Below the pieces are notes generated by a model that was not told where the DNA came from, ran no database searches, and worked only from the letters and a program-made list of their open reading frames with translations. DNA of 33,267 nt from a virus, in the IMG/VR virus record IMGVR_UViG_3300031351_000008, positions 1 to 33,267 of that record; one strand, given 5' to 3'. The position numbers were made by a program, and so were the translations under genes. Of this stretch, positions 4,868 to 25,196 are shown one piece after another (the stretch's first letter is position 1; each line of letters starts with the position of its first letter).

Positions 4868-6454
4868 CTACGCTTCCTCGTTAATTGCTACTAAATCCCA
4901 TTTAGAATCAGTAGAGTTATATATAAATCCTAAATATATTGTTTTGCTTATTATTGTTGTAGTAGGCAAGGCAAACTCCATTGCTCTGTAAATAGCGTTC
5001 CATGCCAAAGCTCTTGCCGTGCCATTGTCTTTGATTCTGATTATCAATTTATTACTATTTGCGGGTGTTCCCGAAGGTGCCGCAAATGTAGCGCCTGCTG
5101 CTAATGCCGTTACCGTAAAGAAATTTCTCAGACTTCCGCCTGTCGGGGTAGGAGTAGCAGACGATGCGACAGTGGTTATTTCCTCCATAACATTAGAGGT
5201 AGCGATGAGAGTTTTGGTTGTAAGCACCTGCGAATCGCTTGTTCCAACTATTGTTCCTGTAACTCCATGCACTCCTGTAGTGGCAGCGTCATGGTCAAAA
5301 GCCCACTCTGAGGTAGGTGCTTTATGTGCTTCATCTTCTGTAGGGGGATTCTCTAAGTAAGCGTCTATGTCCGATATTCCAGCATCAGCCCAAGCAAGAG
5401 CAGTTTCGCTATCATCCCACATTAAATACTTATCAGCCCCAGGGTCGGCAGGGAATACGGCATCAGCACCGCCTACTGCATGAGAGGCAGTATGAGCTTT
5501 AGGAGCATTGTCTGCTGTTACATCTGCTCCTGCTTCTATCCCTGCTAATTTGTCATGGTCTGCCGATAATTCTGCATCCGTATTAGTAGCATCAACTGGT
5601 AATCCGTTGGCATCTGCTTTTAAGATTTGCCCTTCTGTTGCTGCTGAAGTGTGGTCATCTGTGGAGATAATACTATGCTGCTGGTTATGATGAGCGTCAG
5701 CATCAACAGCATGACCTGCTATATCTACACCATCTACTGTGCCAGTAACTACTATGTTTCCTGCAATTCCTAAACCTTTAGAGAAGGCGAAGTTATCTTC
5801 ACTTTCATCCCAAAAAACAGTAGGGAGATCAGTTACTCCTACTTGAAATAGGTAAATATCATCATCTGATGAGGGTTTAACATAAAATCCATTTGCCTGA
5901 AATCGCATATAACCATCACAATCAGAATTAAATACTATAAAGCATGGGTCTGCGTATCCGTTAAACATACCTAAATCTGCATTAAGGATACTCTGATTCC
6001 CAATTACAAAAACAGGAACATCAACTGCACCACCATTGGGAAGTGCAAGAATTAAAGCATTAGCATTTGCATCTGCTGTCTCCCAGCCTAGAGAAGCTAC
6101 TCCACCAAATCTAAAGAAAACATCATCTCCAATATCTATAGAGCCTGCAAGGGCTATACTCCCGTCTGCTTGAAGTAAGTCTGTTCCTTCTACCGCTAAT
6201 ACTCCAGCAGCACTTCTAGTAAGGGTGGTGTCTGAGGCGTGTCCTAGTTCTATCCCTGCATACTGGGGAATATCATCTGTATCAATGCTTAGTAATCCCC
6301 GTATCGTGGCGGGCGTAGCTCTAATCCAATAAGTTCCATTGAAGTAGAGCATATCGTTGGCTGTTTGCCCGTCTGCTTCGTGCGTATCAGTAGCTTCCCA
6401 TTCAGTTTTCGATAATTCAGTCCCTACATCAGTATGCTTAAATTCATTCGACAC
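4868..6454 (-). CDS. Tail fibre protein
   Basis: 528 residues from the ATG at 6454, which lies inside the last codons of the octapeptide-repeat gene. The N-terminus (NEFKHTDVGTELSKTEWEA, then NDMLYFNGTYWIRA) is a form common at the head of phage fibres. The middle is rich in Asp, His and Ala with DAHHNQQHSIISTDDHTSA and LSADHDKLAGIEAGAD, which are fibre-shaft motifs. The C-terminal region (TKTLIATSNVMEEITTVAS) ends in a compact beta domain (LIIRIKDNGTARALAWN). Such proteins form trimers and bind host surface sugars or proteins. Role fairly clear; receptor unknown. Confidence 0.75.
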   Translation of the reverse strand: MSNEFKHTDVGTELSKTEWEATDTHEADGQTANDMLYFNGTYWIRATPATIRGLLSIDTDDIPQYAGIELGHASDTTLTRSAAGVLAVEGTDLLQADGSIALAGSIDIGDDVFFRFGGVASLGWETADANANALILALPNGGAVDVPVFVIGNQSILNADLGMFNGYADPCFIVFNSDCDGYMRFQANGFYVKPSSDDDIYLFQVGVTDLPTVFWDESEDNFAFSKGLGIAGNIVVTGTVDGVDIAGHAVDADAHHNQQHSIISTDDHTSAATEGQILKADANGLPVDATNTDAELSADHDKLAGIEAGADVTADNAPKAHTASHAVGGADAVFPADPGADKYLMWDDSETALAWADAGISDIDAYLENPPTEDEAHKAPTSEWAFDHDAATTGVHGVTGTIVGTSDSQVLTTKTLIATSNVMEEITTVASSATPTPTGGSLRNFFTVTALAAGATFAAPSGTPANSNKLIIRIKDNGTARALAWNAIYRAMEFALPTTTIISKTIYLGFIYNSTDSKWDLVAINEEA

Positions 6455-18038: not shown

Positions 18039-18773
18039 TTACCACCATGAAAAATTGCCTTTTCTAAGCCAGCCATAAGGCTGGCGATTATATGTTGGAT
18101 ATTGATATTTCTTGGGTCTTCCTTCTGGTTGTGAGGGTGTTGGAGGATATGTAGGCGCAGAAGGCTGTGCTGCTTTCGGAGGTTGTACTCTATTAGGATA
18201 TGTGCTAGGTGTAATTGTGGGAGTAGGGGTTGGGGTGAGAGTCGGGACAGGAGAAGGTGTAGAGGGAGTAGATGGAGTGGTGGGTTGAGCAAAGTATTCT
18301 ACCGCTATCTGTGCCCTTTGGGCGTTATACTCACTTTCGGATATTTTCCCGCTATGGAGTTGTAGTCCCAATAGTGCGATTCTGGACTTGAATTGGTCTA
18401 AGGTCATCCTCGCATAAGCAGGAACATCAGGTGGAGAGAAATTGTAAGGAGGCCCTTCAGAGGAAGGTGGTTGAGTTGCCCCATAAGGCGTTTGATTCGT
18501 TGGATATACAGGTGCAGTAGGAATCGTTTGCCCACCTCCCCCACCTGGCCCGATTGGGAGAGTATTCAAACCTGGTGGCATAACGGCTCCTGTCGTAGTA
18601 TCAGGTGGGGCAGGCAAGGGTTCGCCAGTCTCCGCCTGGTCGAAGTATCTTGTAGTTGCTTGTATCCTATAGGCGTTATACTCTGCCTCGGATATTTTCC
18701 CTTCAGACCACAGCCTGTAATATCGTGCTATCCTCTCCTTGAGTTGTTGTAAAGTTGTCTCTGGTCTCGCCAT
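18039..18773 (-). CDS. Protein with duplicated SHOCT-like helical hairpin and Pro-rich linkers
   Basis: 244 residues. Residues 7-45 and 123-162 are two copies of a helical hairpin: L-x-x-(F/L)K-x-RIA, then (E/S)GKISE-x-EYNA and R-x-Q. This is the pattern of SHOCT-like oligomerisation modules. They are joined by Pro/Gly/Thr-rich linkers (PSTPSTPSPVPTLTPTPTP) and end in a basic, aromatic tail GWLRKGNFSWW. The ATG overlaps the portal stop (TAATG). Probably a capsid-internal or portal-associated protein. The aromatic end recalls the YWWEK ends of the next large protein. Function is inferred. Confidence 0.6.
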   Translation of the reverse strand: MARPETTLQQLKERIARYYRLWSEGKISEAEYNAYRIQATTRYFDQAETGEPLPAPPDTTTGAVMPPGLNTLPIGPGGGGGQTIPTAPVYPTNQTPYGATQPPSSEGPPYNFSPPDVPAYARMTLDQFKSRIALLGLQLHSGKISESEYNAQRAQIAVEYFAQPTTPSTPSTPSPVPTLTPTPTPTITPSTYPNRVQPPKAAQPSAPTYPPTPSQPEGRPKKYQYPTYNRQPYGWLRKGNFSWW

Positions 18774-20961: not shown

Positions 20962-21111
20962 TTAATCCAATTTGATAGTTCTTTCTATAGTTATCAGAGT
21001 CGGCTTGCCTTCTCTGAGTTGAATTCTTATATTACCATAAGCAATAGGCCAGTCTATCTTATCAAGTTGTTCTTTGAGCTTCGCATCCTGTTGAGATTCT
21101 AATTTAGTCAT
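20962..21111 (-). CDS. Small DUF2292/YezD-like protein
   Basis: 49 residues. Core pattern DWPIAYGNIRIQLREGKP then TLITIERT matches the (I/V)xYGxIxIxxxxGK...IE plan of DUF2292 (YezD) proteins: a helix and a small sheet. The ATG follows the TAA of the terminase gene directly. Related in plan to the 54-residue protein at 29858-30022. Role in phage unknown. Confidence 0.65.
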   Translation of the reverse strand: MTKLESQQDAKLKEQLDKIDWPIAYGNIRIQLREGKPTLITIERTIKLD

Positions 21112-22530
21112 TTAAACATAAATAACAGGCTTAATGTCTGCTATCACGTGCTGGTGTTTTAACATCTGGTTGGCTATTGAGAAGCTCATTACCAAATCAT
21201 CATGTTTTAATCCCTCTGGTCGCCACGTCTTACCAACTAATTTCCAAATAAAATCCACTAGTTGTAAGACTTGAAGTTTGCAACGAGTAATCATGCTGCC
21301 ATTCTTGATATTCTCAGCCAATTCGCTTAAATAAGTCGTTCTATTGGACTGAGTTGTAGTCATACCAGCCCTTGATTTGGCTTTATCCTCATAGTAAAGG
21401 TTGGGATAGCGTAAATCTTTGAGTTTATTTAACACTGCCTCACCCAAACTATTGCTTTCTACTGCTAATATTGCATTAAAATACTTCCGGCAGAGCTTAT
21501 CTACTTCAAAAGCGAAAATGTCTGTTGAAATTATGTTCGTATTTATCACCGCAGCGACTTCCGCCTGCAATCCCTCTCTACCCAAGATAGTCAAAGTGGA
21601 GTAATCCTCCCCAATTCCCATTCCTACATCCACACCAGCGACATATCTCACCCCAACTTTAGGTTCTCTATATATCATCACCCCCATAGAAGTCGTTTCC
21701 AAGGGTTCTTCTACTCTATCTAATAATCTGTAAAGAGCATCCTTGTCAAAGAAACTCCATGCCGATAGAGGGGACAATGCTTCCTCAATACTTCGTGGGT
21801 ATTCTGCCTCTCTCTGGTGTTCTAGTGGGTATTCTCTTTTAATATCTGCCCACCAAGCCGCATCTCTGCCAGGGCGCACATCGGGAGGGTAAAAATGCGG
21901 AATAAAGTTATTCTCCCCTGCTTGTGCTGCCTTAAATATCCTCTTAGGAAGGCTATCAGCTTTTTCCTTTACAACAGTAAACACCCCGATGAGCTGTCCA
22001 CCTGCGTCTATGGTAGGCTTAATAGCTCCGTAGTTTTGTTCGGAGTAAGGGTGTTTATCCCATTCATCGGCAATTACTAATGATGCAGCTTCACCTGTTC
22101 CTGCTTGCTCAGTTGCAGGCAAGGCAGTGATTGTGCTACCCATCTCCTTGAAACCTAGTATTGTTGCAGAATTATCACTTAACGGAAATTGTAGCCAATC
22201 AGGTAAGCATTTATAAATGAATTTACACTTATTAAGAAGTATCTTTGCCTCATCCTCACCCATACTTAAAAGCAAAATCCGAGCATTCGGCTGAGTTAAT
22301 GCTTTCCGTATCGCATAAGCAGCAATTAACCAAGATAAGCCAATCTGTCGTGCTTTTAACACTACATGTAGTCGGTGCTTCTCAAAGGAGTCTATCAATT
22401 CCATTAAGTGAGGCCACATCTCAAAGTCAACTACGCCTTTGTTTGGGTCGCTGACTTTAACAAACTGGTAGAAATATCTAGGATTCCCCTTAATTTTGGC
22501 TAGTTCTACTATGTAATCATTGAGTTCCAT
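21112..22530 (-). CDS. Terminase large subunit (DNA packaging ATPase and nuclease)
   Basis: 472 residues from ATG 22530, which overlaps the upstream stop as TAATG; a start at 22566 would lengthen it into the previous gene. The Walker A variant KARQIGLS is near residues 59-66 and the Walker B LVIADEWD near 151-158. The RNase H-like nuclease has D301 (AGVDVGMG), E358 (AVESNS) and D444/D445 (KHDDLVMS). The protein pumps DNA into the capsid at the portal and cuts concatemers. Its first seven codons are copied upstream of the previous gene (see the direct repeat at 22510-22529 and 22914-22933). Confidence 0.93.
   Translation of the reverse strand: MELNDYIVELAKIKGNPRYFYQFVKVSDPNKGVVDFEMWPHLMELIDSFEKHRLHVVLKARQIGLSWLIAAYAIRKALTQPNARILLLSMGEDEAKILLNKCKFIYKCLPDWLQFPLSDNSATILGFKEMGSTITALPATEQAGTGEAASLVIADEWDKHPYSEQNYGAIKPTIDAGGQLIGVFTVVKEKADSLPKRIFKAAQAGENNFIPHFYPPDVRPGRDAAWWADIKREYPLEHQREAEYPRSIEEALSPLSAWSFFDKDALYRLLDRVEEPLETTSMGVMIYREPKVGVRYVAGVDVGMGIGEDYSTLTILGREGLQAEVAAVINTNIISTDIFAFEVDKLCRKYFNAILAVESNSLGEAVLNKLKDLRYPNLYYEDKAKSRAGMTTTQSNRTTYLSELAENIKNGSMITRCKLQVLQLVDFIWKLVGKTWRPEGLKHDDLVMSFSIANQMLKHQHVIADIKPVIYV
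22510..22529. repeat. Direct repeat, copy 1 (start of the terminase gene)
   Basis: TATGTAATCATTGAGTTCCA on the plus strand encodes the ELNDYI start of the terminase. Matches 22914-22933 with one change, a synonymous Asn codon. Confidence 0.8.
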
Positions 22531-22895
22531 TATTTGAACCAAGTATAGGGAGTGAAGTATCTCCAAGAGAAAGGTTCGCTTGCTGGTATTTGCTTGAATA
22601 TTCGCCCATTGTCATAAAGAAACCTAATTACTCGCCAATAAGCCTTTAGGGAAAACTTGACTGCTTTATACCAAAAGAAAGGTAGAGGATAATGAGCATA
22701 GATATAACACCGATAAAGATGGTCGAACCCTACTTCCCTTAACCCTAAAGCCCTAAGAATGGGGAGCATAGTGCGTTTGTTATTCTGAGTTATTCGTTCA
22801 ATAACTACACCATTTTCCCTTTCAAAAGGCTCTACCAGTCTGAAGTCCTTTATGAAATTTATTCCGTCTATAGAGTCTGTTGTTAGTTCTATCAT
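22530..22895 (-). CDS. Possible GNAT-fold remnant or unknown phage protein
   Basis: 121 residues, ATG at 22895 with AAAGGAGA upstream. The part around residues 36-68 (TQNNKRTMLPILRALGLREV then GFDHLYRCYI) looks like the C-terminal half of GNAT acetyltransferases (Asn, helix, LGF-REVG), but the N-terminal acetyl-CoA motif is absent, so this is only a hint. The end is very aromatic (SWRYFTPYTWFK). It ends on the terminase start and lies between two copies of a 20-bp direct repeat derived from the terminase start, so it may have been inserted there. Function unknown. Confidence 0.6.
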   Translation of the reverse strand: MIELTTDSIDGINFIKDFRLVEPFERENGVVIERITQNNKRTMLPILRALGLREVGFDHLYRCYIYAHYPLPFFWYKAVKFSLKAYWRVIRFLYDNGRIFKQIPASEPFSWRYFTPYTWFK

Positions 22896-22913
22896 CCATT
22901 CTCCTTTACTTTA

Positions 22914-22933
22914 TATGTAGTCATTGAGTTCCA
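22914..22933. repeat. Direct repeat, copy 2 (relic of the terminase start)
   Basis: TATGTAGTCATTGAGTTCCA: on the minus strand it reads TTG-GAA-CTC-AAT-GAC-TAC-ATA-TAA, the terminase start codons (ELNDYI) followed at once by a stop. It lies right after the stop of the 33-residue gene. Confidence 0.8.
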
Positions 22934-22934
22934 A

Positions 22935-23036
22935 TTACCGGCCCTGCCCTACTTTCTTCGTAACCTTACATCCACTCCTTCCCCTATTAGCTCTTATCCC
23001 TTTCCCTGAACCGTTATGCTTGGGTGTGTTCTTCAT
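22935..23036 (-). CDS. 33-residue basic phage protein
   Basis: MKNTPKHNGSGKGIRANRGR and then SGCKVTKKVGQGR: Gly, Arg, Lys and Asn-rich, one Cys, no hydrophobic stretch. This pattern (DGSGxGxRxNxGRGGC) occurs as a tiny gene next to terminase in other phages as far as I recall. The ATG lies inside the end of the previous gene with AAGGAAA upstream. Probably binds nucleic acid or a structural partner; unknown. Confidence 0.6.
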   Translation of the reverse strand: MKNTPKHNGSGKGIRANRGRSGCKVTKKVGQGR

Positions 23037-23160
23037 TTTCCTTTAATACATACTCCTCAAGTTTAGTGGCAAACTTTATTATTTCTTCTGCCCCTGTCCA
23101 CGCAGCCATCGTCTGGTGCGCCTGCTGTATCGCCCACATTCGTACTTGTTCTTTATTCAT
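23014..23160 (-). CDS. 48-residue helical protein
   Basis: ATG at 23160 with AAGGAGAAAATAA just upstream. Reads MNKEQVRMWAIQQAHQTMAA, then an amphipathic helix EEIIKFATKLEEYVLKE. All-helical, no cysteine. Overlaps the start of the 33-residue gene. Function unknown. Confidence 0.6.
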   Translation of the reverse strand: MNKEQVRMWAIQQAHQTMAAWTGAEEIIKFATKLEEYVLKENEEHTQA

Positions 23161-23192
23161 TTATTTTCTCCTTAAACCTTGTTTTTATATAT

Positions 23193-23534
23193 TTATGGAA
23201 TTAAATTCTCTAGCTTACGCACTAATTCTTCGCCAGATTCAGATATTTCTCCGTCTGATACAAAGCGGTAACGCCCATTAAACTCTAATCTGCCTACTAA
23301 TAAGTGTATCGCCTCATGCTTGGCGGAACGCTTAATATCCTTGTGAGGTTTATCCTTGTCGGGTAAATCGCTATTTAGCCTTACGGTGGCTACCATATCC
23401 TCTAAGTTAATGGCTATGTCGGCAAAAGACCTTTCTAACGGTTCATACTTAAAGTAAACTGCCCACCCTGTTAAGCCGAACTTCTCTTGCCACTTCTTAA
23501 ATTCCTTCTGGAATAACTCGAAGTCTTTGTTCAT
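23193..23534 (-). CDS. HExxH metallopeptidase-like protein
   Basis: 113 residues. HEAIH at 73-77 in the context RSAKHEAIHLLVGRLEF gives the two zinc-binding His and the catalytic Glu of zincins. A following Glu-rich helix (SESGEELVRKLENL) could supply the third ligand. The N-terminal part (KKWQEKFGLTGWAVYFKYEP) and the basic segment (KPHKDIKRSAK) match small phage proteins with this motif, which resemble SprT-like folds. ATG at 23534; the next gene starts 32 bases downstream of the stop. Substrate unknown. Confidence 0.7.
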   Translation of the reverse strand: MNKDFELFQKEFKKWQEKFGLTGWAVYFKYEPLERSFADIAINLEDMVATVRLNSDLPDKDKPHKDIKRSAKHEAIHLLVGRLEFNGRYRFVSDGEISESGEELVRKLENLIP

Positions 23535-23616
23535 TAAAACCCTATTTTTATATTGCGCATTTTTTAAGGGGTTACGCTGATTTATTTATGATTGATTGAT
23601 TAACTAGGGTGGGTAG

Positions 23617-23661
23617 GTAGATTGATTAGTAGGTTGATTTATTAGTAGATTGATTAGTTGG
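23617..23661. repeat. Direct repeat pair in AT-rich non-coding DNA
   Basis: GTAGATTGATTAGTAGG (23617-23633) and GTAGATTGATTAGTTGG (23645-23661) differ at one base and start 28 bases apart, inside a run of further GATT-type units from about 23588. No gene covers this stretch. It could be a protein-binding site, an origin element or a replication-slippage product. Confidence 0.55.
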
Positions 23662-23673
23662 TAGTATATATAG

Positions 23674-23826
23674 TTACTTTCTTTTCTTAGTTGGTTTAAA
23701 GCCGTGGTCTATTGCGTTAAGTAGTCTTCGTTGGGACTGAGCCTTCTTCTTAGTAGTGTGCTTGGCCTTCACTCCACCAGGGGTAGAGACTCTGTAACCG
23801 TCAACCTTCTTTATCTTTACTGGCAT
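23674..23826 (-). CDS. 50-residue basic phage protein (MPVKIKKVDGYRVSTPGG type)
   Basis: ATG at 23826 with AAGGAGGTATC upstream, the strongest site in this area. Reads MPVKIKKVDGYRVSTPGGVK then Lys/Thr, an Arg-rich helix (AQSQRRLLNAIDHG) and a basic tail. Matches my memory of a small conserved phage protein family with the VKKVxGYRVSTPGGVKAKGTT pattern near terminase genes. Possibly binds nucleic acid. Missed easily because of its size. Confidence 0.75.
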   Translation of the reverse strand: MPVKIKKVDGYRVSTPGGVKAKHTTKKKAQSQRRLLNAIDHGFKPTKKRK

Positions 23827-23849
23827 GATACCTCCTTGAATGAGTTGTA

Positions 23850-23897
23850 ATGTACCTTAGAGCCTCAAGAGAGGGGATTAAATAGGTTAAGATACAT
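23850..23897 (-). promoter_or_regulatory. RNA stem-loop upstream of the 50-residue gene
   Basis: On the minus-strand RNA ATGTATCTTA pairs with TAAGGTACAT over ten positions including one G-U pair. A small inner hairpin CCTC-TCTT-GAGG sits inside the loop. The opposite strand would have a C-A mismatch at the G-U position, so the structure favours the minus-strand RNA. It lies between two leftward genes and may be a processing or control element. Confidence 0.5.
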
Positions 23898-23938
23898 TCT
23901 ACTACCCAAGCCAATACACAAGGGCAGTTTTCGGATAC

Positions 23939-24229
23939 TTATCCCGTAACCTCCAGTAAATCACACGCTGTCCCTAAGTCTACACCATAGACTCCGACTG
24001 TTACATCATGGGCGTAATCAGGGTGATGTGAACTCTTGAAAGCGTGGCATATCTTCTCTAACCGGGGACGCCAGAAGGAATCAGTGAGCTTGTCTATAAT
24101 GTCGGGGTATGATGTAATACCCTCCCCTGTAATACCCTCTTTTGTAATACCCTGTGTAATACCCTTTCCCCTGAATCTTCGTACTGCTTCACTACTAGCC
24201 TTCTTCTGTTTCTCTTTGTCTTTATACAT
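23939..24229 (-). CDS. Phage protein with GIT repeats
   Basis: 96 residues, ATG at 24229 with AAGGAGGATA upstream; overlaps the end of the small terminase gene by eight bases. Basic N-terminus (MYKDKEKQKKASSEAVRRFR) then four Gly-Ile-Thr units (GKGITQGITKEGITGEGITS), encoded by a DNA repeat on the plus strand, GTAATACCCT. The rest (DIIDKLTDSFWRPRLEKICH, TVGVYGVDLGTACDLLEV) looks folded. Phage proteins with Gly-Val/Ile-Thr repeats after a basic helix occur next to terminases; function unknown. Confidence 0.65.
   Translation of the reverse strand: MYKDKEKQKKASSEAVRRFRGKGITQGITKEGITGEGITSYPDIIDKLTDSFWRPRLEKICHAFKSSHHPDYAHDVTVGVYGVDLGTACDLLEVTG
24113..24165. repeat. Four TGTAATACCCT units inside the GIT-repeat gene
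   Basis: Copies start at 24113, 24128, 24143 and 24155, spaced 15, 15 and 12 bases (multiples of three), so they encode Gly-Ile-Thr repeats in frame on the minus strand. A coding repeat, not a CRISPR. Confidence 0.8.
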
Positions 24230-24665
24230 TATCCTCCTTCCCTTCTGTCAATTCCTCATACTCCGCTTCCGCTTGTGTTAGGGCTTCCCGGTATAGAGCA
24301 GCAACTTGAGCGTTGTTTATATTTATCTGCACTCCCTCAGTGTAGATTCTATCCATCTTGTTTAATATATCCACAGCTCTTATAGAAGTGTCATCTAAGT
24401 CTTTGTTAGCTATCTTGGTTAAGTGTTGTTTGCGTTCCGTAACACTCATTACAGCGTCATTTTCAGTCTTGCTTCTTAGCTCTTTGAGACGAGCTTGTAT
24501 ATCAGGTTTTTTAAGGTTTTCATTAGCTATAACAGCAGCAGTCTTAGGTGAGTATTTAGCTAACTTTGCAGCCTCAGTAGCGTTACCTAGTTCAAAATAC
24601 TTAACGCAAAACGTTTCCTGTTTCTGAGTTAATCTTTTATTAATATCTAAATTTTCTTTTTTCAT
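24222..24665 (-). CDS. Terminase small subunit
   Basis: 147 residues from ATG 24665. Pattern RLTQKQETFCVKYFELGNAT then EAAKLAKYSPKTAAVIANEN is that of Terminase_2-type small subunits: a helix-turn-helix for DNA recognition followed by helices for oligomerisation. It binds the packaging site and hands DNA to the large subunit. No ribosome site precedes the ATG; the best minus promoter (TTGTCA, 17 bases, TATTGC) would start RNA almost at the ATG, so it may be translated leaderless. It heads the leftward late block and is divergent from the rightward cluster. Confidence 0.88.
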   Translation of the reverse strand: MKKENLDINKRLTQKQETFCVKYFELGNATEAAKLAKYSPKTAAVIANENLKKPDIQARLKELRSKTENDAVMSVTERKQHLTKIANKDLDDTSIRAVDILNKMDRIYTEGVQININNAQVAALYREALTQAEAEYEELTEGKEDNV

Positions 24666-24689
24666 TCGCAATAATACACGGAATAGTGT

Positions 24690-24719
24690 TTGACAAGAGT
24701 ATCGGTTAAGTGATACTGT
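24690..24719 (+). promoter_or_regulatory. Promoter of the rightward cluster with operator-like inverted repeat
   Basis: TTGACA (24690-24695), 18-base spacer, TACTGT (24714-24719) with a TG one base before it (extended -10). Between the boxes lies AGTATC-N8-GATACT (24698-24703, 24712-24717), a likely operator. A weak leftward promoter shares the -35 region. Confidence 0.55.
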
Positions 24720-24726
24720 ATAGACA

Positions 24727-24737
24727 GTTCTTTAACA
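24727..24737 (+). promoter_or_regulatory. boxA-like antitermination element 1
   Basis: GTTCTTTAACA matches the boxA consensus (TGCTCTTTAACA) of rRNA operons and lambda nut sites, which bind NusB-NusE. It is at the predicted 5' end of the rightward RNA, directly before the first stem arm. Confidence 0.55.
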
Positions 24738-24742
24738 ATTGA

Positions 24743-24761
24743 ATATAGCAGGCGAGGCAGG
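24743..24761 (+). repeat. Module 1 stem, 5' arm
   Basis: ATATAGC-A-GGCGAGG-CAGG. Pairs across the gene with 25208-25227 (CCTG-A-CCTCGCC-G-GTTATAT): 18 pairs with one mismatch, one bulged A and one G-U pair. A further GGGT:ACCC helix (24764-24767 with 25196-25199) follows an internal loop. Confidence 0.6.
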
Positions 24762-24782
24762 CAGGGTATAGGAGTGTCAAAT

Positions 24783-25196
24783 ATGGCAACTCAACCAACT
24801 TGCAAGGAACGAGTGAGAGAAAGCCTACGAGGTAGAATCACCGATTTGGAAAAGCTCTGGGAATTGTGGAAGCAAGACACAGAAGCTAGTGACCCTGAAC
24901 TTGGCAACTTCAACGAGTACGGACTTTGCCTTGATTATGTAGCCCCGGAAACATTTAAGAATCAAAGGCGAGGTTATCTCAGATACCAGTTAAGCTGGGG
25001 GGGACCAAGTGATGAGTTTAGGTTCTATCTAGACGAAAGCCTTAACCCAACTAGAATTGAGTACTGGTTCTTAGACTGGTTTGACGGAGCTAAAATCATA
25101 CTCAAAGGAAAAACCCTAGCCCTACTAGAGGAAATCTACCAAGATTTTAAGGAAACGGGAACAGTGCAATATAAAATAGGAGCAGCACAAAGTTAA
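24783..25196 (+). CDS. Conserved protein of unknown function, first gene of the rightward cluster
   Basis: 137 residues from the ATG at 24783, which has AGGAG eight bases upstream; an upstream GTG at 24774 overlaps that site. Core features: ELGNFNEYGLCLDYVAPETF, QRRGYLRYQLSWGGPSDEFR, then IEYWFLDWFDGAKIIL. I recognise this signature (LGNFNEYGLxxDYV ... RYQLSWGGPSDEFRF ... WFLDWFDGA) from small uncharacterised proteins of phages and mobile elements. N-terminal helix is charged. Function unknown. Enclosed by module 1 stem arms. Confidence 0.75.
   Translation: MATQPTCKERVRESLRGRITDLEKLWELWKQDTEASDPELGNFNEYGLCLDYVAPETFKNQRRGYLRYQLSWGGPSDEFRFYLDESLNPTRIEYWFLDWFDGAKIILKGKTLALLEEIYQDFKETGTVQYKIGAAQS

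Follow-up and report, generated by a model that had tools for sequence, protein, structure and literature searches.

The start of the gene encoding the large terminase subunit (TerL) in an unclassified phage occurs twice, that is, once at the head of the intact gene and once as a short copy farther upstream, with a 121-codon gene located between the two; the structure is probably a recombination scar at a gene-exchange boundary. The DNA analyzed (the window) is the whole 33,267-base record IMGVR_UViG_3300031351_000008.

The start of TerL is repeated upstream of a 121-codon gene

The terminase region is encoded on the minus strand, to which all coordinates in this section refer unless noted. 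The small terminase (24222–24671; Pfam Terminase_2, E 8e-21) is followed by genes of 96, 50, 113, 48, 33 (22935–23036) and 121 codons (22530–22895) and then by TerL (21112–22530), which is intact, encodes 472 aa and matches both Pfam Terminase_6N (E 4e-6) and PHROG phrog_2 (E 4e-27). The DNA from 21000 to 25000 had no blastn match in the phage collection. Short degenerate tandem repeats with 16- and 28-nt units are located in the intergenic region between the 113- and 50-codon genes (window 23613–23671); elsewhere, a 41-nt repeat with 80% identity (window 18310–18350 and 18661–18701) lies inside the gene at 18039–18773, its source being an internal protein repeat.

The sequence TGGAACTCAATGAYTACATA is found at the TerL start and at a second site 404 nt upstream (start-to-start), with the 121-codon gene between. 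The copy at 22510–22529, TGGAACTCAATGATTACATA, comprises TerL codons 1–7; the copy at 22914–22933, TGGAACTCAATGACTACATA, directly follows the TAA of the 33-codon gene. A first-pass annotation of this DNA had described 20-bp repeats at these positions with one synonymous difference, and this is confirmed: the copies are identical at 19/20 positions, and the sole difference is GAT/GAC. They are the only direct-repeat pair with at least 19/20 identity within 1.5 kb in the whole window, and none of 60 dinucleotide shuffles gave such a pair; a pattern search allowing up to three mismatches returned the same two sites only (0.01 expected). With a 1-nt gap, the repeat extends to TAA(T)TGGAACTCAATGAYTACATA and so takes in, at each of the two sites, the stop codon that ends the gene before it. 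The repeated length is 20–24 nt only, not the whole 404-nt block, so the gene has not been duplicated in tandem, as one of the two origins suggested for the structure would require; no duplicated block was found.

The two junctions differ by one nucleotide. At the TerL copy the junction is TAATG, that is, the stop codon of the 121-codon gene shares one base with the start codon of TerL, as the first-pass annotation had noted in placing this gene between the copies and ending it on the terminase start codon; TerL translation is probably coupled to the 121-codon gene through this overlap. At the upstream copy the junction is TAATTG, and because of the one extra T this copy has no ATG and is readable only as TTG-E-L-N-D-Y-I-TAA (22934–22911). 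Thus, both copies do encode the ELNDYI start, and the distal one stops at once, as previously described, after seven codons; because its ATG is lost and the stop follows so soon, the upstream remnant is probably dead.

The 121-codon gene belongs to a small family found near diverse terminases

The 121-codon gene has its own Shine-Dalgarno sequence (AAAGGAG) and a lower G+C content (38.0%) than TerL (41.3%) or the window (42.8%). We found no terminator-like site for it; in a search for the sigma-70 consensus only, promoter-like sites were no more common than in shuffled sequences and none was directly upstream of the gene. For its 121-aa product, Pfam, NCBIfam, PADLOC and the PDB gave no match and PHROG no significant one, and no known fold matched its AlphaFold model (mean pLDDT 70) significantly (E ≥ 0.1). 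No member of the family was found in the INPHARED phages, nor, in a pattern-limited search, in bacterial or archaeal genomes. The product is most likely a small accessory phage protein.

IMG/VR contains four members of the family: the window gene, L001 (45%), L003 (39%) and L090 (33–34%, cut by the contig end). These are located near terminase genes of three different kinds, in three kinds of phage. In L003 the family gene is directly before TerL, with a 22-nt overlap, and this TerL has no BLAST similarity to the window TerL; in L001 and L090 the family gene adjoins terminase genes but points away from the terminase operon. In these two loci a gene with a CxxC-type N-terminus is directly before the family gene (L001 4477–4842, L090 4711–5091; 37% identical to each other), and it is possible that this gene is a functional partner. 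In L003 the family gene and the TerL downstream of it start alike (6001–6022 and 6381–6402), with 15/19 nt in common after the ATG. One other non-repetitive pair was as good among the 36,585 ATG pairs in this 16-kb locus, and the likeness may be chance because part of it overlies the conserved TWLK end of the family protein.

The start of TerL is a boundary of gene exchange among relatives

Relatives of the window TerL were collected with alignment-based searches; a search with an alignment of four TerLs gave only relatives with ~30% identity, and one with an alignment of two TerLs gave a useful set. The syntenic relative G001 has a major capsid protein that is 70% identical and a TerL that is 39% identical to those of the window. 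The 121-codon gene was not detected in G001 or in 13 other TerL-relative records, many of which are fragments, so this absence is only suggestive. Between its 96-codon gene and TerL, G001 has genes that share nothing with those of the window.

Three relatives (L104, L105 and L106) have TerLs that are 77–80% identical to each other. Directly before each TerL is an unrelated gene, of 57, 77 and 54 codons, respectively, with junctions of −1, +1 and −4 nt, and each of these genes is translationally coupled to TerL. BLASTN similarity among the three begins about 5–23 nt inside TerL; the 300 nt upstream of the TerL start align no better than shuffled DNA, whereas the 300 nt downstream align far above it. 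In a second comparison (L107 and L109, TerLs 66% identical), L107 has an extra 60-codon gene before TerL that L109 does not have, and L109 shares a related gene farther upstream with L107. Judged from these alignments, the TerL start is a gene-exchange boundary among the relatives. The first-pass proposal that a gene was placed in front of the terminase without breaking it is therefore supported: TerL is intact, the 121-codon gene was not detected in related TerL records, and the TerL start is a place of exchange among the relatives.

The first-pass annotation had also raised the possibility that the repeat is conserved for another reason. Among nine relatives with a definable TerL start, none repeats its own TerL start farther upstream at a level above the null expectation; when the first 24 nt of TerL were compared with the upstream DNA, the best match was 14–16/24 in these relatives, equal to that obtained with shuffled queries, and 20/24 in the window. 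Thus, the repeat is not conserved at TerL starts.

If the 121-codon gene was acquired, the expected empty site would have T(T)GGAACTCAATGAYTACATAGTAGAA immediately after the TAA with which the 33-codon gene ends. A comparison with related phages for such a site, with the 33-codon gene directly before TerL, had been suggested as a check, and none was found among the relatives; in G001 and the 13 other records this is because the upstream neighbors differ, too. A scan for the empty site with a single TerL protein had no matches, and the 33-codon gene was not found ahead of any TerL examined. A terminase starting with MELNDYI was found in no other contig in IMG/VR, and a degenerate ELNDYI pattern matched only two non-terminase genes in that collection. 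The 33-codon protein, which has the motif GSGKGIRANRGR, had no tblastn match in the phage collection; the one homologue encountered (L092 13732–13872) is in the structural region past the capsid gene, not before the terminase, and we read this position as that of a small gene that may change its genomic place. The closest TerLs are only ~40% identical to the window TerL, so the event can be neither dated nor polarized.

A probable recombination scar and the alternatives to it

We favor a history in which TerL originally came straight after the 33-codon gene, the two meeting at the TAA(T)TGGAACTCAATGAYTACATA junction. The 121-codon gene would then have arrived on a segment that included its own ribosome-binding site, joined to this position by an exchange that needs little or no homology. 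This could have occurred in either of two ways. A related phage may have contributed the 121-codon gene together with its TerL, with the old start coming from the other parent; alternatively, the 121-codon gene may have been inserted and the junction copied during the insertion, in which case both copies would derive from one genome. Either way, a 20–24 nt remnant of the old TerL start would remain before the new gene, with the full TerL start behind it. A one-genome and a two-phage origin would both accommodate the single substitution and the 1-nt indel; we slightly prefer the two-parent origin over duplication during insertion, as no special enzyme has to be invoked. Within this history, the sequence of events, the donor and the enzyme are inferred. 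Judging by sequence, if the two copies recombined with each other, the 33-codon gene would again be followed directly by an in-frame TerL, now with a TTG start, and the present state is therefore reversible in principle.

The other origin that had been suggested, insertion with duplication of the target, would have a transposase- or endonuclease-like enzyme place the 121-codon gene into a staggered target and so duplicate 20–24 nt. Direct repeats of equal length that flank a foreign gene and a precisely preserved TerL agree with this; however, a region scan detected no terminal inverted repeats where the insert begins and ends, the 121-aa protein shows no similarity to transposases or endonucleases and its model has no significant fold match, and a duplication of 20–24 nt is unusually long for transposition. 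A search for further copies of the gene beside different repeats had also been suggested, and the window has none. We consider an insertion of this type unlikely; illegitimate exchange between two related phages, with the old TerL start remaining as a leftover, accounts for the structure no less well than target duplication. The duplication proposed in the first-pass annotation is correct in outline, though not in its tandem form, and target duplication of the transposon type finds no support. With neither terminal inverted repeats nor transposase similarity, a transposon or insertion sequence was rejected, as was a free-standing homing endonuclease gene (no endonuclease domain by Pfam, NCBIfam or PDB; PHROG and fold matches insignificant). 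In a bolder version, the 121-codon family would be a minimal mobile gene that has inserted more than once at the 5' ends of terminase genes and re-creates the target start behind itself. The hints are that family genes adjoin terminases of two unrelated families (in the window and in L003), that the window has its TerL start in duplicate and that the two gene starts in L003 are unusually alike; we regard this version as highly improbable. It is also very unlikely that the 121-codon gene is a standing neighbor of TerL that itself did not move, with the TerL start copied upstream later by a template switch. The L003 family gene that overlaps a TerL of an unrelated family, and the adjacency to terminase genes in L001 and L090, speak for such a history; the L003 arrangement also weighs against the scar reading, as the adjacency may be old or selected and the repeat perhaps the later mover. 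Yet the family was not detected in relatives of the window identified by TerL or major capsid protein, and a random copy would not explain the position of the upstream copy, which follows a stop codon exactly and shares the TAA(T)TGG context of a TerL junction.

The repeat might instead be functional, that is, a protein- or RNA-binding site, a packaging site or a leader mini-ORF, with its two copies controlling or coupling terminase expression. The upstream copy is indeed in frame, TTG-ELNDYI-TAA after a stop codon and just before the ribosome-binding site of the 121-codon gene, and the sole substitution is synonymous; against this, the nine relatives have no comparable repeat, the window has no RNA family match, the context of neither copy folds better than shuffled sequences (z 0.57 and 1.26), and the extra T removed the ATG of the upstream copy. 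A functional repeat is, in our estimate, quite unlikely, and a structured leader or other RNA element and a conserved TerL-start repeat were rejected on the same folding, RNA-family and relative comparisons. Chance similarity or an assembly artifact might be suspected for a short repeat in a single metagenomic record; the shuffles and the expected count, the intact reading frames throughout and the homologues of the 121-codon protein in independent contigs reduce this to a near-negligible probability.

Comparison with known systems

A recombination scar of the kind that we favor resembles one described in the mycobacteriophage Island3, in which gene 68 is a small orphan gene flanked by a ~50–60 bp repeat and absent in its close relative Brujita, an arrangement explained by recombination between short repeats (Pope et al., 2011; PMC3029335). 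In both phages a small orphan gene is flanked by a duplicated gene end, leaving a similar scar; however, in Island3 the repeat comes from the 3' end of the upstream gene, whereas here it comes from the 5' end of the downstream gene, TerL, and an empty-site relative (Brujita) exists for Island3, whereas an exact one was not found here. We searched the literature for this kind of scar at the start of a terminase gene, and this example was the closest that emerged.

The 121-codon gene may also be compared with morons, that is, additional genes that have been inserted where relatives have two adjoining genes (PMC3029335): it is a small, putatively foreign gene in a structural/packaging operon, was not detected in the relatives, several of which are fragmentary records with other upstream neighbors as well, and has a G+C content of 38% (vs 43% for the window). 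It differs in that we found neither a promoter nor a terminator of its own; instead, it appears to be translationally coupled to TerL.

The boundaries of mosaic modules arise by illegitimate or relaxed homologous recombination (PMC2327257, PMC3945230, PMC3029335), and DNA similarity in L104, L105 and L106 is likewise lost sharply near the start codon while the gene functions are kept. Such boundaries are usually scarless, whereas in the window seven codons of the former gene start are left as a remnant; the joint retains 20–24 nt of the former neighbor, stop/start junction included, which suggests where the former module boundary was. Together with these three relatives, the window marks the terminase start as a place of exchange at which translation of the packaging motor is kept. 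This is a clear but ordinary case of phage gene shuffling, with local consequences that leave the knowledge of phage evolution unchanged; most module boundaries leave no trace, and this one provides a readable joint in phage mosaicism.
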